DNA from: Alphaproteobacteria bacterium
GTDB taxonomy: Bacteria; Pseudomonadota; Alphaproteobacteria; UBA6615
Assembly: GCA_021774575.1 (NCBI GenBank)
Contig: JAJFIX010000006.1
Coordinates: 186,001-250,000, forward strand
DNA length: 64,000 nt
Direction: 5' to 3'
Part shown: positions 26,999 to 38,842 of the stretch, piece after piece
Layout: every line of letters starts with the position of its first letter
Numbering within the stretch: the first letter of the stretch is position 1
The notes under the pieces: generated by a model
Database searches by the model: none
What the model saw: the letters and a program-made list of their open reading frames with translations, nothing else
What the model was told of the DNA's origin: nothing
Made by a program: the position numbers and the translations under genes

Positions 26999-29263
26999 CT
27001 AAATCTGGTCCGGTTTATGGTTTTGGGCAGGGGAATCGTTCAAACGAAACTCAGACAAGACTTCGAATTTTGCCGAGAGCGTCAAATCCCGCGGTCGGGA
27101 CGAGGGGCCCACATAAATTGTGAATGTGCCCGCCTCCACAATGCCGTGCCCATTCGGGTGCCAGATCGCCATTTCCTCAGGGGCAATGTTAAGGCTAACC
27201 GTCCGGTTTTCCCCAGGTGCTAAGAAAACGCGTTGCCAGGCACATAGTTTTCGGGCCGCACGAGTTCGACTGCCGACTTCGTCACAAATGTAGACTTGCG
27301 CCGTCTCAGTGGCCGGGCGGTCGCCGATATTGCGCAGGCAAAAAGTTACCGTTGCAGCATCTCCGTCGACCAGTTCCTTGTGGCTCATCTGCAAGGAATG
27401 GTATTCAAATCGGCCATAAGTCAGGCCTTCGCCGAACGCGAAAACAGGAACGGCCAGAGCCTCAGGTAAATCACAATATTGGTCGTCAAAATGCCATCCA
27501 GGGCGCTGATCATAGCGCACCGGTGTTGCTCCACCATGGCGGGGGAAGGTTACGGTCAGACGGCCGGATGGCGAAATGTCTCCAAAAAGCAACTGCGGCA
27601 ATGCATCCCCGCCGCGCTCACCAGGATTCCAAATACACAAAAAGGCGTCAGCCAACTCGGCGACCGCATCGATAATGAGCGGCCTATTTGCCATGTAAAC
27701 GACAATGAGGGGTCGCCCGGTGTTCTTGAGTTCCTCAATCAGTTCGTCTTGGCGACCCGCTAAGTGAAGCGATGCACGGTCGTGCTGCTCGCCGGCCATC
27801 TCGCGACAATCGCCGACCACGGCGATAATCACATCGGCCTGGCCACCGATTTCGGTCGCCACGGATACGTCCGACCGGTCATTGTCAGTGAGCTCACACC
27901 CATAATGACTAACGACGTCAATGCCGCGCGCTTGGCAGTAGTCTTTCATGCCCTGCAGCAGGGTCACGCAGCGTTGCGGCCCCTCCTCAACGTTTCGCGA
28001 TAACCAGCCATCGCGCCCCACCAAGCCAAGGGACCAATCGCCAAGTTGCTCGACAACGGAATCGATCGCCGGACCAATAAGTGCAATTTTTCCATTTTTC
28101 GAGGCTGAAAGCGGTAACAATTTGTCGTTCTTTAAAAGTATTGCAGATTGAAGTGCTGCCTCCAGCGCCAGCGACTTGGCGGCCTCGGTGTCCGCGATAT
28201 TTCTCCCCCTCGAAAGACGGTTTGGCTCTTCCGTTTCCAATAACCCGAGCTTTTCCTTCATCTCCAGCACGCGCAGACAGGCCGTGTCGATATGGTCCTG
28301 ACCGACTTTTCCGTGTTCGAAGGCAGATTTCAGCGCCGCAGGAAAGTTCGGTGTCCCCATTACGATGTCGGTTCCATTGGCGACGGCAATCGCTGCGGCA
28401 CTCTCCAGGTCCGGTGCCACCCGGTGAAGGTCGACCAATCGATCGACATTTTGCCAGTCGGTCAGGACCAACCCGTTGAACCCCATTTGGTCGCGCAGTA
28501 GGTCTTGCAGCAATGCGCCGTTGGCAGTGCAGGGAATGCCGTCGACAGCATGATAGCCAGCCATCACCGACGCCGGCCGAGCCTTCAAAGCGTGCCGCCA
28601 TGGCGAGAGCGTCTCGGCCTGCAAGGTCTGGCTACTCGCCGCATATTCGGTCGAATCTCGACCGCCAAGGCCTTCAGAATATCCTGCGAAATGCTTGGCG
28701 CAGGCCAGAACAGATGTCGACCTGTCCGCACCGCAACCTTGAAAACCTCGGATACTGGCTGCCCCCATCAGCCCGGCGAGATAACCGTCTTCCCCGGCGG
28801 TTTCACCAATGCGTCCGAACCGCGGATCACGTGCGGTATCCATGACCGGCGCCAATGCCCAATGAATATTTGTCGCGATCATTTGGAGCGCTGTGGCTTC
28901 GCCGATAAGTTCGAAAAGTTCGAGGTCCCATGAGCTTGATAGGGCGATCCGTGTCGGAAATGTCGTGCCCTCGTTCCAGAACGAATGCCCGTTGATGCAA
29001 TCCATGGCAAACAGCGGCGGTATGGAAAGCCGATGTCGTGCTGTCAAATGGGATTGGAGGACCGATGCGATTTCGCCTTGAACATTGATTATCGACCCGG
29101 TGTGAACCGCCGCCATATGCTGTACGGATTGATGATTGGGAATATCACCAAGATAAAGTTTCCGTCCATCAAGCATGCACAGCTGCCCAATTTTTTCGTC
29201 AAAACTCATCTCGCGGAGGATGGCATCGGGCCGTGCGTATGACTGGGGCTGCTGTTTGCTCAT
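26999..29263 (-). CDS. Glycoside hydrolase family 3 beta-glycosidase
   Basis: A 754-residue GH3 enzyme that removes terminal beta-linked sugars such as glucose or xylose. The TIM barrel carries HWALAPVMDTARDPRFGR, CAKHFAGYSEGLGGRD and the nucleophile Asp269 in GLVLTDWQNVD. The alpha/beta sandwich domain follows, and the C-terminal fibronectin III-like domain begins near residue 640. No signal peptide, so it acts in the cytoplasm on imported oligosaccharide. It is the last gene of the lacI operon, 39 bases after the GH63-like gene. Confidence 0.93.
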   Translation of the reverse strand: MSKQQPQSYARPDAILREMSFDEKIGQLCMLDGRKLYLGDIPNHQSVQHMAAVHTGSIINVQGEIASVLQSHLTARHRLSIPPLFAMDCINGHSFWNEGTTFPTRIALSSSWDLELFELIGEATALQMIATNIHWALAPVMDTARDPRFGRIGETAGEDGYLAGLMGAASIRGFQGCGADRSTSVLACAKHFAGYSEGLGGRDSTEYAASSQTLQAETLSPWRHALKARPASVMAGYHAVDGIPCTANGALLQDLLRDQMGFNGLVLTDWQNVDRLVDLHRVAPDLESAAAIAVANGTDIVMGTPNFPAALKSAFEHGKVGQDHIDTACLRVLEMKEKLGLLETEEPNRLSRGRNIADTEAAKSLALEAALQSAILLKNDKLLPLSASKNGKIALIGPAIDSVVEQLGDWSLGLVGRDGWLSRNVEEGPQRCVTLLQGMKDYCQARGIDVVSHYGCELTDNDRSDVSVATEIGGQADVIIAVVGDCREMAGEQHDRASLHLAGRQDELIEELKNTGRPLIVVYMANRPLIIDAVAELADAFLCIWNPGERGGDALPQLLFGDISPSGRLTVTFPRHGGATPVRYDQRPGWHFDDQYCDLPEALAVPVFAFGEGLTYGRFEYHSLQMSHKELVDGDAATVTFCLRNIGDRPATETAQVYICDEVGSRTRAARKLCAWQRVFLAPGENRTVSLNIAPEEMAIWHPNGHGIVEAGTFTIYVGPSSRPRDLTLSAKFEVLSEFRLNDSPAQNHKPDQI

Positions 29264-29302
29264 GCCGCTATGTCACCAAAGAGGAGGCCGTGCATTCTTC
29301 TT

Positions 29303-30619
29303 TTAGTCCGCCTCTACAGGTTGGGCCGAAAGCCATGTCAGGCGCATTGCGGCTGTCCAGGAAAAACAATCCCCCCCCAACCCCTGACCGTTTTCCGGGT
29401 CGAAATATTCCCGAAATCCACTTTGGTCGATCAAGGCCCTCGTGTCGTCGGCAATAATTTTTGCCAGATCTCCATGACCCGCCGCAGTCAAACCGTCGGA
29501 AATCATCCAATTGATAATTGCCCAAACCGGGCCGCGCCAATAACGTTTCGAATCAAACCTCGGGTCGGTCGGATCGAAGCTCGGCACGAGGTAGCGTGTA
29601 TGGTCGCGCCAGGACCATAGGCGTTTGACCAAGGCTTGCGTTTGCGCGGGCTCTGTTGCGTGAGCGAACAAAGGTAAGAATGTTGAGGCCGAAATCGACG
29701 TGATCGATTGATCGGCCGCGTAATCATAGGGTTGGAAGCTTTGCTGTGGCTCGCTCCATAATGATTGCAGGCCCATTTTTCCCTTTTTTACCCAACCGTC
29801 GACTTCTTCGGTTAGATGGGAGGCCCCCACGTATTCGACCAACCATTGCAGATCAATATTGCTCCGCTGCAGGAGGGAGTTAACAAAAAGATCGGCCACT
29901 CGAAACGGTGCGACGGGCGCAATTTCCGATTGTTTCCATCCTAGATTGCTATAACGATGAACCAATGTCAGATATTTATCATAATCGGAATTGGTCGGGC
30001 GATGCTCCGCCACACTGTGTTCGGTGTCACGGCGTTCGTAAGGGGGGATCTCATCGACCGGCACGTTCGCCAATGATGCATCCCAGTCGACGCTGTTATC
30101 TGCGCCGGATTCCCACGGATGGATTGAAACGACCAATCCGCTATTATTGAGTTCGCGCGCTGCATAGAACCATCGATGCCAAGCGGCAATTTTTGGGACG
30201 AGACGGGCGCCAAATTCAAGTGCCGTCTCCTTGTCGCGTGCCGTCTCGATTAATTGGCGCACACAGGTTGCGGCAACCGGCGGCTGGGTAATGCCCGATG
30301 TTGCCGGCGATTTTCCGGTCGCCCAGACATCCGGCCCGGGGAAATAGCCGGTATCTTCTTTGTGAAAGACAATGTGCGGCACCATGCCGTCGTCCCACTG
30401 GGCTGAAAAAAGTGTTTCGATTTCGGTCCAAGCGCGGCCCTCATCGAAGGTCGCCCACCCCAATGCCGTTAGGCAAGAATCCCAATTCCATTGAAATGGA
30501 TAGAGTCCTCGCGCCGGTATCGTATAGGTGCCGCGGTCATTCTGACGCAGTATTTTCCTGGCCTGATCGAGTTTTTCTTCAACCAAGTCGGTCGGCGTCG
30601 TGCCGTTCTCAGCTACCAT
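29303..30619 (-). CDS. GH63-like (alpha/alpha)6 glycosidase, mannosylglycerate/glucosylglycerate hydrolase type
   Basis: A 438-residue cytoplasmic enzyme with the (alpha/alpha)6-barrel signature of GH63/trehalase-like hydrolases: GLYPFQWNWDSCLTALGWA near residue 41, QWDDGMVPHIVFH, SIHPWESGADNSVDWD and YWRGPVWAIINWM. The acids in WDS and ESGADNS are probable catalytic or binding residues. The size and motifs fit the bacterial mannosylglycerate or glucosylglycerate hydrolase group. This suggests that the operon takes up an osmolyte-type glycoside, but other alpha-glucosides are possible. Confidence 0.8.
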   Translation of the reverse strand: MVAENGTTPTDLVEEKLDQARKILRQNDRGTYTIPARGLYPFQWNWDSCLTALGWATFDEGRAWTEIETLFSAQWDDGMVPHIVFHKEDTGYFPGPDVWATGKSPATSGITQPPVAATCVRQLIETARDKETALEFGARLVPKIAAWHRWFYAARELNNSGLVVSIHPWESGADNSVDWDASLANVPVDEIPPYERRDTEHSVAEHRPTNSDYDKYLTLVHRYSNLGWKQSEIAPVAPFRVADLFVNSLLQRSNIDLQWLVEYVGASHLTEEVDGWVKKGKMGLQSLWSEPQQSFQPYDYAADQSITSISASTFLPLFAHATEPAQTQALVKRLWSWRDHTRYLVPSFDPTDPRFDSKRYWRGPVWAIINWMISDGLTAAGHGDLAKIIADDTRALIDQSGFREYFDPENGQGLGGDCFSWTAAMRLTWLSAQPVEAD

Positions 30620-30643
30620 GTCGCTTTCGTCTCCAATATTGCG

Positions 30644-31888
30644 TCATCCCTTGACGCTTCCTGCGGTAAGGCCGGCGACCATAAAGCGCTCAAGCCAAAG
30701 AAAAATGATCATGACCGGCAGCGTAACAATGACGGCGCCGGCCATCAGAAATTGTCTCGGTACTTCCGAACTATTGAGCGAGACGATACCCCGCGAAAGG
30801 GTGAAAATTTCCGGGTTGTCGAGAAACATGAAAGCGAAGAGAAATTCGTTCCAGGCGATCATGAATGTATAAATGGAAACGGAGGCCAGCGCGGGAACGC
30901 TTAATGGCAATGTGATACGCCATATTATGCCGACCCGGGAGCAGCCGTCGATAAGTCCTGCCTCTTCGAGTTCGCTTGGAATACTGCGAAAATAGCCTTG
31001 CAGCATGTAAAGGGTGACCGGCAGCGTTGCCGCCGGATAGACAATCAGGAGGCCAACCAACGTGTCGCGCAGGCCCAGTTGGCTGAATACGCTATAGAGC
31101 GGGATCACCAGAACGATTGCCGGGAACATGTAGATCAATAATATCGAATTTGACATCAGCACCCGACCGGGAAATCGCAGACGCGAAACGGCGTAGGCAC
31201 CTGGCACGGCGAGCAACAGAGTGACTATTACAGTTGTTAGTGAAACGAAACCACTGGTCAGAATGTAGCGGCCAAAGTTGAAGTTAACGATGACCTCCCA
31301 ATAGCCGACAAATAGAGACTGGAAGCCTTGGGAAAAATTGAGACTGAGATCAAGCGGATCAATCAGCAGTTCAGCCCGTTTCTTGAAGCTTGAAACGATC
31401 ATGTAATAGAAAGGTGCGGCAACAATGACGATAAAAAAGGCAAACCCGTAGAGGCGCAATGTACGAAGAAAAAGCAGCTCAGTGTCGTCGCGGGTGAACT
31501 TGCCAATTGCCAACCCGTCGAGCGACGACCGGACGATGAATTCCACACCGATAAATGAAATGAGTGCGCCCCCGCCCCCCCAAAACAGGCCGGCGTTCTC
31601 GAGGGGCAAACCGAAAGGCATGCCTCGCGATAGGGCCAAAAAAACGGTTACGCCGGTGGCGGTTGAAATTAGCGCCCTCAGGTTTTTTCTAATCTGCAAG
31701 CTGGTCAAGACACTGTAGGCAACACCGTGACCCAATCCAGCCGCACAAGCGATAGCGACCGGTAAAATATTGGGTTGAAGGCCAATCACTGTCGCCAGAA
31801 TTCCCCAAATCGGAATAATCAATAGCGCCGCAAGCAATCCGGCGAGTGCTGCCGCGATGGCACCGCTAACAGATATTTTATCGGTCAC
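30644..31888 (-). CDS. Sugar ABC transporter permease (MalG type) with N-terminal membrane extension
   Basis: A 414-residue inner membrane protein. Residues from about 145 form a standard MalG-type permease with six helices and the EAA loop EEAGLIDGCSRVGIIWRI that docks the ATPase. The first 140 residues are additional and hydrophobic, with about four further helices (around 8-35, 40-62, 72-88 and 103-119). MalG proteins are usually near 280 residues, so this is a fusion or an unusual extension. The start overlaps the end of the MalF-type gene by 4 bases. No ATPase gene is present in the operon. Confidence 0.9.
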   Translation of the reverse strand: MTDKISVSGAIAAALAGLLAALLIIPIWGILATVIGLQPNILPVAIACAAGLGHGVAYSVLTSLQIRKNLRALISTATGVTVFLALSRGMPFGLPLENAGLFWGGGGALISFIGVEFIVRSSLDGLAIGKFTRDDTELLFLRTLRLYGFAFFIVIVAAPFYYMIVSSFKKRAELLIDPLDLSLNFSQGFQSLFVGYWEVIVNFNFGRYILTSGFVSLTTVIVTLLLAVPGAYAVSRLRFPGRVLMSNSILLIYMFPAIVLVIPLYSVFSQLGLRDTLVGLLIVYPAATLPVTLYMLQGYFRSIPSELEEAGLIDGCSRVGIIWRITLPLSVPALASVSIYTFMIAWNEFLFAFMFLDNPEIFTLSRGIVSLNSSEVPRQFLMAGAVIVTLPVMIIFLWLERFMVAGLTAGSVKG

Positions 31889-33147
31889 AGCATTTCACCC
31901 TTCGGCATGAAGATGAAATAAAACACCATGAAAATCGCCAGCATGAAAAAGATAACAACGGAAACAGCTGCGCCGGCGCCAAGATTTGACAGGGCAAATG
32001 CCTGGTCATAAACGCCAACCGTCAATGTGCGTGTCCCGGCATTACCCCCGGTCATCAGAAATATGTCATCGAATTTATTGAACGTCCAAATGAAGCGCAG
32101 CATGAACAATATCGAAAGGATTCCAACCAGTTGAGGCATTGTTACGAAGCGAAATTTTTGGATGGGACTCGCCCCATCGATATCGGCGGCTTCATAGATA
32201 TCGCTTGGTAGAGCCTGCAGGCGGGCTAAAATAAATAGGAACGAAAGCGGAAAATACCGCCACGCTTCGAAGGCAATAACGGTCGCCAGCGCGACTGGGA
32301 ACTGCACTACAAAGCCAAATAATTCGATGGGCATGACGCGGGTGCCAAGAAAATTAATCGGCGCTTCGACCAACTCATACCGCACCAATAGCATGTTGAG
32401 AACGCCGCTGAAGGGATCGAGGAAAAACACCCAGGTAAATGCGACAGCGATGACCGGCGCGACAAATGGGAATAGGAGCAGCCCCCGAATGACCGCTCGG
32501 CCCCTGAAACTGGTATTCATCAGTAAGGCGGCAAACAGGCCCAGGGCGATTGCACCAATCGTTCCAAATACTGTGTAAATGACAGTGATCCGGACGGATT
32601 TCCAAAATTCGCGCTGACTAAAAACTTTGCGGAAATTGTCGAGGGTGAAATTGAAGTCCAGTAGTGCATTCACCGAGTGTCCGGTGGTCGTAGTTTCGCT
32701 GTCGCGCGGATTGATCCCGCTGGCAAAAAACTCCGGAGTGGCATCAAATAAAATTGAAATATCTTCCCGAAACCGCGGTGGCCATATTTCGTAGGAGCAT
32801 GTAATGGCGTCCTCATCAATCTCGCAAAATTGAGGTACGTCCCTTGCCGACAAGCCTGCTGGAACGGTGTCGCGAAGAACAATGTCCTCGACGGCACCTC
32901 TGCTGGAGCGATTTCGTAAACGATATAAAACGGTAACTGTGCCGTTCTGGGGGTCCTCACTCACGCGCTCACTCACGCTGGGTGTGGGCGCGCGCAAATC
33001 GGCAAGTTGGATATCCTTAAAACTGATCCAAATATCGGCTAAAACCGGAAAAAGCACAATCAAGAAAACGATCGTTACCGGCGGTATCAGCATGCCATAG
33101 GCAAGCATTACCTCCTTTTGCCGCATAGTCATTTTTTTCAACGACAT
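31885..33147 (-). CDS. Sugar ABC transporter permease (MalF type) with DUF11-like periplasmic insert
   Basis: A 420-residue inner membrane permease. Helix 1 spans about 17-37. Instead of a short loop, residues about 55-145 form a periplasmic domain with alternating beta strands (TVTVLYRLRNRSS, VEDIVLRDTVPAGLSA) and cysteines at 108 and 117 that could form a disulfide. This resembles the DUF11 Ig-like repeat of surface proteins. The remaining helices and the EAA loop EAADIDGASPIQKFRFV are normal. It pairs with the MalG-type protein. A substrate- or wall-binding role for the insert is inference. Confidence 0.88.
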   Translation of the reverse strand: MSLKKMTMRQKEVMLAYGMLIPPVTIVFLIVLFPVLADIWISFKDIQLADLRAPTPSVSERVSEDPQNGTVTVLYRLRNRSSRGAVEDIVLRDTVPAGLSARDVPQFCEIDEDAITCSYEIWPPRFREDISILFDATPEFFASGINPRDSETTTTGHSVNALLDFNFTLDNFRKVFSQREFWKSVRITVIYTVFGTIGAIALGLFAALLMNTSFRGRAVIRGLLLFPFVAPVIAVAFTWVFFLDPFSGVLNMLLVRYELVEAPINFLGTRVMPIELFGFVVQFPVALATVIAFEAWRYFPLSFLFILARLQALPSDIYEAADIDGASPIQKFRFVTMPQLVGILSILFMLRFIWTFNKFDDIFLMTGGNAGTRTLTVGVYDQAFALSNLGAGAAVSVVIFFMLAIFMVFYFIFMPKGEML

Positions 33148-33259
33148 TAACGCCCGCCTTTTCCGCTGCTGGAAAATGACTAATGATAATTCCTAGGGCT
33201 GGTAGAAAGCGGATAGTGGGGCACAAAGACAGGCTTCGCACCCCACCATCCTGGGAGTA

Positions 33260-34609
33260 TTAGATATTCGTAAGTTCAATAACAAGCGCGTCATACGTGC
33301 TTTCCACTGACCGTTCTCCGTCAATGAATTCGCGGACCAAACGGTTCAGAACGCGGCTATTGATGAACTTGGATGCCTGGACCAATTGGCCTTCGGCTAC
33401 ACCCCAACGATCGGCTGTATCGAGACCGGAAACGATCTCCTGGATCACCGATGCGGGATACAGGCTGGCAAGCGATGCCTTACGATCAACGCCGACATCA
33501 AGTGTAGACCAGAGGTCGATAAAGGCGCTTGGATCGTCCTGGGTACCACGACGGACCGGAAATTTGCCCTCGGGGGCAATGCCCAAAATCTGGCCATAGC
33601 CTTCGGAAAGGGCGAACTCGACAAAGGCGGTCGCGGCATCGGTATCGGCATCGGTCGTAATGCCGAGATAGGTGACGCTGCCCCACGAGGCACCAGCAGC
33701 ATTACTCGGCCCGGCAAGTGTCGTGACCACGCCCGTCACTTCGGCGAGTGCACTGGATGTCGGGTCGCTGTTAAAGGTCGGCGGAGCGGAATCGCGCAGC
33801 CCGGCCAGCTCGTCCAAAATAAACGGTGACCAAATGATCATCGCCGCTTGACCGGCAAGGTAGAGTTCACGCGACTGCTGCCAAAAGAGCTCGCCCTCGG
33901 GGCTGGCGTCGGCGAGGGATTTATAGAAATTGAGCGCCTCAATTGTCCGTCCCCGATCAAGATTGAGCTGTCCATTTGGGGCGACCAGCCGAATGCCATT
34001 GGCCAGGAATACATGCTCGAGCAACTGCTCCATGTAAGATTCGTCAACCTTGGTCGCGGCGACAAACCCAAATACACTCGGCGGATTATGTAGCGCGGCA
34101 AGTGCTGCCTGGATATCGGCGTAGGAATCGGGTGCTGCGAGACCGGCTGCATCGAAAAGATCGGTCCGGTAAAGGATCATTTGCGTCCAACCATCGGTCG
34201 GAACACTGGTAATCGTGCCTCCAACCCGCGCCATATCCAACGCACCTGGTGCAAATGTTTGTTGGCCTAGGGCGGCAATGACGTCGCCGGCCGCGTCATC
34301 ATCCAGAATACCGGCATCGGCCCAAGAGCCAAGAACGGTCAGCGGATGCTGCACAATGTCGGGCAAGTCGCCCGCGCTAAACGCTGCCGTGACACGCGTG
34401 TTGAGGTCGCTTTCCTCAATCGGCACCAAATCAATGGATACACCGGTCGCGGCTTCATATTGAGCGATCAACGCTTCTTGCCGGGCAATACGGACTGGCT
34501 GGTTTTCTGTCGTCCACCACTCCAAATTCTGGGCGCTCGCCGGCACGATCGCCGCCGTCGACGCAAGCAACGCCGCGCCCAATACTGAACGTGTTAATAT
34601 GTTTCGCAT
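33260..34609 (-). CDS. Extracellular sugar-binding protein of an ABC transporter
   Basis: A 449-residue periplasmic binding protein of the MalE-like family 1 type. The signal peptide is MRNILTRSVLGAALLASTAA with cleavage after ASA-Q near residue 27. The mature protein begins NLEWWTTENQPVRIARQEAL. I chose the ATG at 34609 because GGGAGG lies five bases upstream; the longer frame to 34660 has no such site and would spoil the signal peptide. It is the first transport gene after lacI on the same strand and is followed by two permeases. Confidence 0.9.
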   Translation of the reverse strand: MRNILTRSVLGAALLASTAAIVPASAQNLEWWTTENQPVRIARQEALIAQYEAATGVSIDLVPIEESDLNTRVTAAFSAGDLPDIVQHPLTVLGSWADAGILDDDAAGDVIAALGQQTFAPGALDMARVGGTITSVPTDGWTQMILYRTDLFDAAGLAAPDSYADIQAALAALHNPPSVFGFVAATKVDESYMEQLLEHVFLANGIRLVAPNGQLNLDRGRTIEALNFYKSLADASPEGELFWQQSRELYLAGQAAMIIWSPFILDELAGLRDSAPPTFNSDPTSSALAEVTGVVTTLAGPSNAAGASWGSVTYLGITTDADTDAATAFVEFALSEGYGQILGIAPEGKFPVRRGTQDDPSAFIDLWSTLDVGVDRKASLASLYPASVIQEIVSGLDTADRWGVAEGQLVQASKFINSRVLNRLVREFIDGERSVESTYDALVIELTNI

Positions 34610-34697
34610 AACATCCTCCCTTTTCTTCAGTTGGTTAGAGTTTCGTTCGCTTGGTCTCACTTTGCTTAGAATCTCAGTTTCCTCTTTTCTCAGACCC

Positions 34698-35714
34698 TTA
34701 CTTCGAATGACAAATGCCGTCGGATTCTCTGACGATCAGACGCGGTTGCCACAAATCCTGTAAGTCCTCGATCGTGGATCCCGATATTCGTGACAGCAGC
34801 ATTTCCGCGACATGCGCGCCGGCTGGACGAATTGGTTGATGTAGGGTGGTGAGCGGTGGCTCGGTATATTTGGCGAATGGCAGGTCGTCATATCCGATTA
34901 TTGAAACGTCGGTCCCGACAGTTCGACCGCATTCTTTGACCGCGCGCATGGCGCCCAATGCCATTGCGTCACTTGCACAAAGTAAGGCCGTTGGCGGTCG
35001 ATCCAGACCCAGTAACCGTTCAGCCAGCCGGTGTCCGTCGACTTCGCCCCGGTCGCCTTCAACGATCAATTCGGGATCGCATTCCAGACCGGCGTCGCGC
35101 AGCGCCCGTTCGTAGCCGTGGCGCCGCAACAGCGCGAAGTGTAGATCCTCCGGCGCGTTGATAAGGGCAATCCGACTATGACCAAAATCGATCAGCCGTT
35201 CGGTGACTTGGATGAAACCGGCCTCATTGTCCATATCGAGAAAAGCGTGCTGGGCGCTCTCTCCGGATCGGCCGAAAGTGACAAATGGAAAATTCCGCTC
35301 CAGCAGATAATTGATGCGTGGATCCTTGGTCCGTGTACGCGCGACGATCAGACCGTCAACGCGCCGACCTTCTACCATTCGGCGATATGCGCTGAGCTCT
35401 TCTTCGCCGGTCGGTGCCGCGACGACCAGGAGATCCATATCTGCCTGGTGAAAAACCTCGGCCACACCGGCAAGAAATTCCGAATAGAAAGGATCGCCAA
35501 AATTACCAACCCCGACCGACATGATGACGCCGACCGCCTCCAGGCGGCCCTTGGCCAAACGCCGCGCGAGCGGATTGGGTGAATACCCCACTTCGCGTGC
35601 CGCGTTCGTCACGCGTTCGCGTGTTGCGGCACTCACATCCGGGTAGCCGTTTAGCGCCCGCGATACGGTGGTCTGTGATAAGCCGAGATGCTTTGATAGC
35701 CGTTTTAGATCCAT
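34698..35714 (-). CDS. LacI-family transcriptional regulator
   Basis: A 338-residue repressor. The N-terminal HTH is LKRLSKHLGLSQTTVSRALNG, followed by the hinge helix NPLARRLAKGRLEAVGVI. The periplasmic-binding-protein-like sensor domain follows (VTFGRSGESAQHAFLDMDNE, CASDAMALGAMRAVKE, IGYDDLPFAKY). The first gene of the minus-strand sugar operon. Two perfect AAAGCGCTTT palindromes lie just upstream of its start, so it probably represses the whole operon and itself until a sugar ligand binds. Confidence 0.93.
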   Translation of the reverse strand: MDLKRLSKHLGLSQTTVSRALNGYPDVSAATRERVTNAAREVGYSPNPLARRLAKGRLEAVGVIMSVGVGNFGDPFYSEFLAGVAEVFHQADMDLLVVAAPTGEEELSAYRRMVEGRRVDGLIVARTRTKDPRINYLLERNFPFVTFGRSGESAQHAFLDMDNEAGFIQVTERLIDFGHSRIALINAPEDLHFALLRRHGYERALRDAGLECDPELIVEGDRGEVDGHRLAERLLGLDRPPTALLCASDAMALGAMRAVKECGRTVGTDVSIIGYDDLPFAKYTEPPLTTLHQPIRPAGAHVAEMLLSRISGSTIEDLQDLWQPRLIVRESDGICHSK

Positions 35715-35724
35715 TTTTACTTCT

Positions 35725-35736
35725 CAAAGCGCTTTG
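35725..35736. promoter_or_regulatory. LacI-family operator, proximal
   Basis: The perfect palindrome CAAAGCGCTTTG, centred about 16 bases upstream of the lacI start codon. It has the central CG step typical of LacI/GalR operators. Its position between start codon and the likely promoter suits repression. Confidence 0.85.
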
Positions 35737-35757
35737 GGTCGCTAACACTAGATACCA

Positions 35758-35767
35758 AAAGCGCTTT
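35758..35767. promoter_or_regulatory. LacI-family operator, distal
   Basis: A second copy of the palindrome AAAGCGCTTT, its centre 32 bases (about three helical turns) from the first. The pair is on the same face of the helix, allowing cooperative binding or occlusion of a promoter lying between or across them. Confidence 0.85.
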
Positions 35768-35969
35768 GGATGTCAAATTATTGGATTTTAGAGTTCAAAC
35801 ATTCCCAAAATATGATGGAACCCTATTGCGGGAGAGCCCGGCACTCAGTGACGTCAAGTCAATACTGTTGAATTTGAATTCTTCCCTGAATCGCAGCTAA
35901 AACGGGTAATTCTGCCTCTCGTTTTCCGGCGAATTTTCCTAACCTTGCGGGTTGTTCGGTGAAATAGAA

Positions 35970-36940
35970 ATGGCCCAGCGAGAATTGATATTGGCGCATA
36001 AGATGCAGGACGAAACCGAGGCAAGGGCAGTACTTAATCAGGTCAGCGATTTTAAAACCGCTGAATTTCCTGACAAACCGATCGCCCAAGTACGCCAGGA
36101 ATTTGCAACGATCTTCGGGTCATTGTGCTTGGCGACACCGCCTCATATAGATCACGCTTCGGATCACAGAATTGGCGTCGGGGATGGCGTCGATATCGGC
36201 CTGCGCCTTTACCGTCCGGACAGCGAAAAACCCCTTCCTGTCCTGCTTTTTTTCATGCTGGCGGCTATATCATGGGCGATTTGGATCTGACGGACAATTT
36301 CTGCCGAATGGCGGCTCAGGGGTCCGGATGCGCGGTGGTCCCCGTCGATTACCGCCTGGCGCCCGAATGCAAGTTTCCGGGGCCGCTGGAAGACGGATAT
36401 GCGGCTCTTAATTGGATTGCCGATACTGGAGACGAACACGGGTTAGATGGATCCCGCATTGCCCTGGCTGGCGAATCATCTGGGGGACGCTGGCACTCGG
36501 GGTTGCCAGATTGGCGCGGGAGCGCAAAGGACCGGATGTCGAAAAAATATTTTTTGTGGTATCCGGGCACGGGGAGCTTGGGCGAAACCAAATCTTCGCG
36601 TCTCTACGAAGGATATGTCATCGATACACCCCTCATGCGGATGTCGATTATGTCTTACGTGAATGACCAAAGCGAGATACCAAACTCTTTGGTCCAGCCT
36701 ATTCGAGCCACGGATTTAAGCGAGATGCCGCCGGTCCATTTGATGTCGGCTGGGCTCGATCCGCGCCATGACGATAACGAGTTATATGCCGACATGCTTG
36801 CCAAGGCCGGGGTCGACATTGAATATCACAGCGTCGATGGTGCCTTGCACGGGTTTTTGTTCATGCTCCAAGATCACCCGATCGGTTTGTCGCCCGCCCG
36901 CCGATCGATCAGCGCACTTGGCAGCTGGGCCGGGGGTTGA
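35970..36940 (+). pseudogene. Broken alpha/beta-hydrolase (hormone-sensitive lipase/esterase family)
   Basis: The conceptual protein is an HSL-type esterase of about 320 residues. The oxyanion segment HAGGYIMGD, the nucleophile loop GESSGG, the acid in GLDPRHDDNELYA and the histidine in GALHGFLF are all recognisable. The frame changes three times, each at a homopolymer: one T short at 36247-36253 (7 T), one G short at 36482-36486 (5 G) and one T extra at 36550-36555 (6 T). Restoring these gives an unbroken family member, including LALGVARLARERKGPDVEK between the second and third changes. Either a recently inactivated gene or sequencing errors; adjacent genes are intact, which favours a real pseudogene. 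Confidence 0.8.
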
Positions 36941-36941
36941 T

Positions 36942-37166
36942 TTAGTTTGGTACGAACATCGTGCTGGGCAGATACATGCTGATCGCGGGAAACGACACCA
37001 GAATGGCTAGGCAAACAATCATCGCAAACCAAAATGGTAAGACACCGATAAATATTTGACTCATTGGCACGTTTGGCCCGGCCACACCCTTGACAACAAA
37101 GACGTTGAGGCCAACCGGAGGCGTGATCATGCCCATTTCCACGACGATCACTACCAGCACTCTATC
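36942..37166 (-). pseudogene. C-terminal remnant of a TRAP transporter large permease (DctM)
   Basis: About 73 codons on the minus strand match the last helices of DctM: VLVVIVVEMGMITPPVGLNV, then FVVKGVAGPNVPMSQIFIGV and LPFWFAM. The match stops abruptly near 37166, and no upstream part, small permease or binding protein is present. It is a truncated relic in the decayed zone that also holds the broken esterase. Confidence 0.75.
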
Positions 37167-37477
37167 GCAACAGCAAGCAATCGCCAGGCAACCCCGAGGA
37201 CTAGCGTTGATCGCCCCGGGACTGAAACACGGGGCACTCCGGCGCCATCTAGGTAATGTGCACGCAGCTCGAAAACCCGTTACCTATTCCGTTATTTTCA
37301 AATTGGGAAATAAAGCCGATGATGGGGTGACGGCATATTACTCAGTATTTTCAATGAAACAAATGGTGCGCCGGAGGTGATGAAAATGAGGACTGGCTGT
37401 TAATTGTGACGATCGAAGCAGGAAAACCGTAGGGAACAGGGATTGCTACGGTAGGAAATTGCAACTCTCAATACCTT
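37167..37477. other. Gap without recognised gene
   Basis: About 310 bases between the TRAP relic and the NYN-domain gene. Short open frames exist on both strands but none has a ribosome binding site or a recognisable motif. The region is probably leftover sequence from the deletion that removed the rest of the TRAP genes. Confidence 0.5.
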
Positions 37478-38245
37478 TTATTTGGACTTTGCTTTCGCCT
37501 TCGACTGAACGGGTCTTAGACGAAGTTGAATTCCGCCGCTAGGGATACGCTTAGTAACAAACGCGCCGGTTTTCAGGACCAAATCGCTCAGTTTTACTTG
37601 GCCATACGTGCGTGGATCGAAATCTGTAGCCAAATTTGATAGTTGTTTTCCCACCATGGAGAGCGATACCCAACCGTTGTCGTCATCCAATTGCGCAATC
37701 GCCTTTCGGATCAAGGGTGTCGCGGCACTCGGCGGTTTCAACGCCTTGGCCTGTGGGGCCTTAGATTGTTCGTGTTGGGCCAGGTTCGGTGCCTCGGGGA
37801 GCAAATTTTCCGTGTATATAAAACGCCGACATGCCTGACGGAAACTCTCCGGCGTCTTCTGTTCGCCAAAGCCGTAAACATCGGTTCCTTGTTCGCGGAT
37901 CCGGGCTGCCAAGCGTGTGAAATCGCTGTCGGATGATACCAGGCAGAAGGCCTCAAAGCGGCCGCTGTGCAACAAATCCATTGCATCAATTACCAGCGCA
38001 ATGTCCGACGCATTCTTTCCTGACGTGTATGCAAAATTCTGATGCGGCATAATCGCATGTATCGACATGACGTCCGACCAGCCTTTGAGACGAGTTCCTG
38101 AAAAGTCACCATAAATACGTCGGACACTAGCCTCACCGATTTTTGCGATTTCTTCAAATAGACCTGTCGCGATACGCGCCGACGCATTGTCGGCATCGAT
38201 AAGAACAGCAAGGCGCGGCGCACGAGGTTCAATATTCATCGCCAA
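37478..38245 (-). CDS. NYN-domain RNase-like protein with C-terminal OST-HTH/LOTUS-type domain
   Basis: A 255-residue protein. The N-terminal NYN (PIN-like) domain has the acidic residues that hold metal: LIDADNAS (residues about 16-22), KNASDIALVIDAMDLL and SSDSDFTRL. A linker rich in lysine and glutamine follows, then a C-terminal winged-helix domain (about 170-245, IRKAIAQLDDDNGWVSLSMVG) of the OST-HTH/LOTUS type found with NYN domains. Probable RNA-directed nuclease or RNA-binding protein in the cytoplasm. It stands alone in the decayed zone but is intact. Confidence 0.85.
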   Translation of the reverse strand: MAMNIEPRAPRLAVLIDADNASARIATGLFEEIAKIGEASVRRIYGDFSGTRLKGWSDVMSIHAIMPHQNFAYTSGKNASDIALVIDAMDLLHSGRFEAFCLVSSDSDFTRLAARIREQGTDVYGFGEQKTPESFRQACRRFIYTENLLPEAPNLAQHEQSKAPQAKALKPPSAATPLIRKAIAQLDDDNGWVSLSMVGKQLSNLATDFDPRTYGQVKLSDLVLKTGAFVTKRIPSGGIQLRLRPVQSKAKAKSK

Positions 38246-38561: not shown

Positions 38562-38684
38562 TCATGAGTTTGGCCGAATAGGAGCGATTTTTGTGCAGTT
38601 CGAGGAGAAGTCCAAATAGTTTCTCCGAAAATGCTTCCCCGCCTCCCTCTTGAGCTCATCCGTAAACCGACTACGACCTGACAT
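38562..38684 (-). pseudogene. Possible N-terminal relic of an IS3-type transposase OrfA
   Basis: A 40-codon minus-strand frame begins MSGRSRFTDELKREA, which resembles the start of IS3-family OrfA helix-turn-helix proteins, and has GGGGGA upstream of its ATG. The similarity ends after about 15 residues and the frame stops at 38562. The rest of such an element is not visible here. Evidence is weak; it could be a chance match. Confidence 0.35.
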
Positions 38685-38842
38685 GCAAAGTTCCCCCTTG
38701 GTTCCAAAATTAACAAGCAAAGCGTCTATAAATCCAGGGCACCTCAAACTGTGGAGAATAGAAGAGGGTAACGATTTAATGGAGTTAGGTCGGGGAAGAT
38801 GTCCCGGTTGGCGAATGGGCTCTCCCCATTGCTAGGGCTTGT

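Follow-up and report, generated by a model that had tools for sequence, protein, structure and literature searches.

The carboxylesterase gene at positions 35970-36940 (plus strand) of the window (the whole 64,000-nucleotide stretch of DNA that was analysed) is probably, with about three chances in four, a genuine, recently inactivated and quite ordinary pseudogene lying beside the truncated remnant of a DctM transporter gene; it is open only by way of three changes of frame. The host is represented by a draft genome of 3.50 Mb in 46 contigs (96.93% complete), and the window lies within its 488-kb contig C42. Among the genomes searched, no other belongs to the same genus, and 24, this one included, belong to the family.

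To judge from its sequence, the gene is that of a hormone-sensitive-lipase-type (family IV) carboxylesterase (PF07859, Abhydrolase_3): its 271-aa open frame matches the profile over positions 3-209 of 210 with 167.9 bits (cut-off 25), and its best solved relative is Est8 (PDB 4ypv; E 1.8e-47). Likeness to family IV enzymes such as Est8 and EST2 (1qz3) extends beyond the PF07859 match to the Ser-Asp-His triad, which is found in the expected motifs, and to length: the pieces of the gene sum to 316 residues, and the homologues have a median of 315 aa. What sets it apart from these enzymes is the three frame breaks and the replacement of HGGG by HAGG. The first-pass annotation had stated that all catalytic elements survive. 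That is correct for the triad, which is retained as Ser in GESSG, Asp in DPR and His in LHGF (the corresponding columns of 64 homologues hold Ser in 64, Asp in 64 and His in 63); it is not correct for the first Gly of HGGG, which has become Ala at a position occupied by Gly in all 63 homologues that cover it (the 64th, the G008 fragment described below, ends before that column). The oxyanion-hole residues of LipN are Gly144 and Gly145, according to the part of PMC10099132 drawn on here; by our own count from Trp146 these would be the last two glycines of HGGGW, both of which are kept in the window gene. On the same count the Ala of HAGG is the residue preceding the oxyanion-hole glycines, and its effect is uncertain.

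The three breaks were located by frame-tolerant alignment of the unaltered DNA to 14 intact homologues, the best among 43 that had been collected. Break 1 is placed at 36229-36250 by 13 of the 14 (L046 shows none), break 2 at 36486-36506 by all 14 (exactly at 36486 by 12 of them), and break 3 at 36526-36547, again by all 14. A fourth break, at 36863 near the C-terminus, appeared with L048 alone, and with L053, L055 and L056 the step size differed at one site or two; both kinds of deviation are taken as alignment noise. With the remaining homologues, breaks 1 and 2 shift the frame in the same direction and break 3 shifts it in the opposite one, so that breaks 2 and 3 cancel each other and break 1 stays uncancelled. 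The first 93 codons, starting from the ATG at 35970, are in another frame, which runs into a stop at 36290, and the 271-aa ORF carries approximately 23 out-of-frame residues from break 2 to break 3 (Table 1). A family IV esterase is expected to have a single functional reading frame; here three breaks interrupt it, and the frame is disrupted relative to intact homologues, as it is in pseudogenes. The alignment thus bears out two statements of the first-pass annotation, that there are three frame breaks and that their shifts cancel in part. Its assignment of the breaks to runs of 7 T (36247-36253), 5 G (36482-36486) and 6 T (36550-36555) needs one amendment: the runs lie exactly there, but break 3 is not assignable to the 6-T run, since it could equally well belong to a run of 6 A at 36542-36547.

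Table 1. The broken esterase gene, its pieces and breaks, and adjoining genes (window positions).
Feature	Positions	Strand	Remarks
LacI-type regulator gene	34698-35714	-	
Esterase, N-terminal piece	35970-36248	+	cap/lid part; first frame, which stops at 36290
Longest open frame	36125-36940	+	271 aa, GTG start; wrong frame ahead of break 1 and from break 2 to break 3
Frame break 1	36241-36254	+	overlaps the 7-T run 36247-36253; 13 of 14 homologues
Esterase, second piece	36254-36484	+	HAGG motif (HGGG in homologues) to nucleophile elbow GESSG
Frame break 2	36482-36486	+	5-G run; shifts the frame as break 1 does; 14 of 14 homologues
Esterase, short third piece	36487-36540	+	third frame; first part of the helix that follows the nucleophile
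Frame break 3	36541-36556	+	opposite direction; spans the 6-A and 6-T runs; 14 of 14 homologues
Esterase, C-terminal piece	36554-36940	+	catalytic Asp (DPR) and His (LHGF), stop codon
3' remnant of TRAP-transporter large permease gene DctM	36942-37166	-	PF06808 positions 356-413 of 413

How old is the damage? The inactivation, if real, is young. No nonsense codon occurs in the 316 codons of the in-frame pieces (105 of the 2,844 possible single-base changes, or 3.7%, would create one), and it is on this account that the loss is judged recent; indels outnumber the other visible damage. Third-position GC content (GC3) of the four pieces is 0.55, 0.60, 0.67 and 0.66, as compared with 0.60 +/- 0.04 for other genes; the longer pieces, at 0.55-0.66, fall within about 1.5 s.d. 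of those genes, which does not indicate a long decay. Changes at conserved positions were considered as a further sign of decay and largely discarded. Of 43 columns with 90% conservation, nine are changed in the window copy, among the highest counts in 43 sequences and matching its low mean identity, and several of the changed residues are shared with an intact relative, G008:C160, and are subfamily traits; the HAGG change alone was retained.

At E <= 1e-20, homologues of the esterase are found in 23 of the 24 genomes of the family (this one counted), as many as five to a genome; at E <= 1e-40 they are found in 16 of 385 genomes of the class (this one counted), with at most 43% identity apart from the gene itself. 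None of the matches listed in these family and class searches has an inner stop. The genome itself contains no match at 1e-20 other than the broken esterase, plus one partial PF07859 match on contig C45. A search of a genome collection with the raw 271-aa frame, whose query words come partly from out-of-frame parts, returned no relatives; with the in-frame pieces joined, it returned two distant homologues (37% and 34%). A DNA search of this genome together with 39 relatives, 40 in all, revealed no near copy of the esterase: the longer matches in that search lie in the DctM tail, and the six within the esterase are short (35-141 bases, 68-89%).

The nearest relative found, G008:C160 (L067, 5213-5770), is an open frame of 185 aa at the end of a contig, 42% identical to the window esterase over 178 aligned residues. 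The two have in common LWYPG, DPRxDDN and HGFLFML, motifs that distinguish the window gene from the other homologues: G008:C160 is the sole one of 64 to have any of the three patterns. It is an intact member of the same esterase subfamily. It runs in one open frame across sites 2 and 3, and its longest base run is 4; site 1 lies past the contig end. A search of viral contigs with this fragment gave no match.

The first-pass annotation called the rest of the window's genes intact, which does not hold for the gene next door. Convergent with the esterase, stop to stop, lies what is left of a DctM gene: 74 codons matching the last ~58 positions of PF06808 with 41.8 bits. The C-terminal 58 profile positions are kept, and the first ~355 are absent beside them; no DctM-like sequence is seen upstream of the remnant, and two stops lie in frame before 37430. 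The open frame of the remnant is 113 aa, while the nine other DctM matches in the genome have open frames of 439-776 aa (one of them with a TAA inside the matched stretch). Truncation, not a run error, has thus broken this neighbour as well. The convergent esterase/DctM pair is not demonstrably an old neighbourhood, since none of the 17 DctM loci examined in relatives (3.1-14.4 kb each, the window's own excluded) has an esterase next to its DctM gene.

The probably decaying stretch is small, and is flanked by the LacI-type regulator gene and by a gene (37478-38245) whose protein carries both an NYN nuclease and an OST-HTH/LOTUS domain. Directly ahead of the regulator gene (34698-35714, minus strand) are two adjacent AAAGCGCTTTGG-like palindromes (35725-35774), which we take to be putative operators of the LacI-type regulator itself. 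The regulator belongs to an apparent sugar-use cluster (26999-35714) with a GH3 glycosidase, an MGH1-like glycoside hydrolase, a solute-binding protein, and two ABC permeases of unusual length (414 and 420 aa). On the other side, a stretch of 48 bases (37362-37409) has an 83% match on contig C32, where it follows a tRNA-Ser(gct) gene at a distance of about 25 bases, and a partial one on C40. A segment of ~110 bases (38639-38755) has five further copies in the genome at 77-90% identity, two of the five shorter; one copy (L061) continues into a reading frame that we recognise as the start of an IS3-type OrfA. The segment seems to be a remnant of an insertion sequence of which only the end is left, 1.7 kb from the esterase. 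A 21-base inverted repeat (36487-36507 against 37187-37207) has an exact core of 12 bases, which is, by our own estimate, about what chance would provide in 3.3 kb.

The first-pass annotation left three options standing: a very young pseudogene, a gene controlled by slippage, and errors of assembly. The last of these is the main rival to a pseudogene. Could the gene be intact in the organism, and the contig carry three errors in base runs, owing perhaps to low local coverage? Each of the three breaks lies within or beside a base run, the catalytic triad is kept, and the genome is a draft in 46 contigs; three indels in pieces that have no nonsense codon fit sequencing error also, which is why this explanation, although unlikely, is kept as a real minority chance. 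The part of PMC3711429 drawn on here points the same way in expecting sequencing error to account for isolated, BLASTp-validated frame breaks more often than real indels do; that prior runs against the pseudogene and has already been counted in the confidence stated at the outset. A general homopolymer error across the assembly is unlikely, because the breaks sit in one gene. Scanning 53 other ORFs of the window against Pfam left 43 judged to be whole genes in one frame (the other 10, with no Pfam match or a weak or partial one, were excluded from the count), and these 43, with 172 runs of at least 5 in 47,573 bases, are unbroken; the esterase has seven such runs. The chance that three random run errors all strike the esterase is 3.7e-5, or 9.5e-4 given the first, both being post hoc figures that assume unclustered errors. 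All 73 ABC-ATPase domains genome-wide, in frames of 213-643 aa, are likewise free of inner stops (~66 genes, with seven domain pairs counted as one gene each, in a comparison that is blind to breaks far from the ABC domain), and no breaks of this kind appear in the nine DctM genes. Two features of the locus, moreover, are not of a kind that run errors produce: the truncation of the adjoining DctM gene, and the Gly-to-Ala change in HGGG, which is a substitution.

Regulated expression stands on much shakier ground. A phase-variable or slippage-controlled gene, with its full product made through transcriptional or replicational slippage, would agree with the position of the breaks, which lie in runs of 5-7 A, T or G, but it would need three events together. 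As far as the part of PMC1088944 drawn on here goes, A/T runs are selected against, in a large proportion of genomes, at nine nucleotides, a length that the runs in the esterase do not reach, although shorter runs may slip in some bacteria. Programmed frameshifting, according to the corresponding part of PMC3711429, requires a conserved break site, isolated validated breaks being likely sequencing errors or recent indels; here the site is not conserved, G008:C160 being unbroken over sites 2 and 3 with no run longer than 4, and the homologues listed in the family and class searches are all in one frame. Slippage control is accordingly very improbable. Marginally more improbable still is that the frame 36125-36940 is a live, remodelled hydrolase that has shed its cap and in which breaks 2 and 3 compensate at the price of ~23 replaced residues. 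That frame is indeed open from its GTG to the natural stop and covers nearly all of PF07859, but it is without the N-terminal part found in homologues, what has been replaced is the helix that follows the catalytic Ser, and the same arrangement was seen in no relative found in the genome-collection, family and class searches. Even taken jointly, regulated slippage and a remodelled live gene are highly improbable. The young pseudogene remains the best supported of the options, because a second broken gene adjoins it and no break was seen in the other genes that were tested, in the window and across the genome.

As a pseudogene, the esterase would have lost selection and then acquired its frame changes by replication slippage in short base runs. 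Its product would probably have no function, because a translation that begins at the original start codon runs only to codon 107, and because in the 271-aa frame the N-terminal part is missing and the helix behind the nucleophile has been replaced. It resembles other bacterial frameshift pseudogenes in its single-step indels in short runs and its intact homologues elsewhere, as well as in being isolated, in having break sites that are not conserved, and in having a neighbour that has decayed too; no feature distinguishes it from them.

What the finding means is correspondingly circumscribed, with nothing wider following from it than these two points: 1) In annotation, neither an active esterase nor, on the strength of the 271-aa frame, a short novel hydrolase should be called here. 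2) The locus offers a small example of adjoining genes decaying together.
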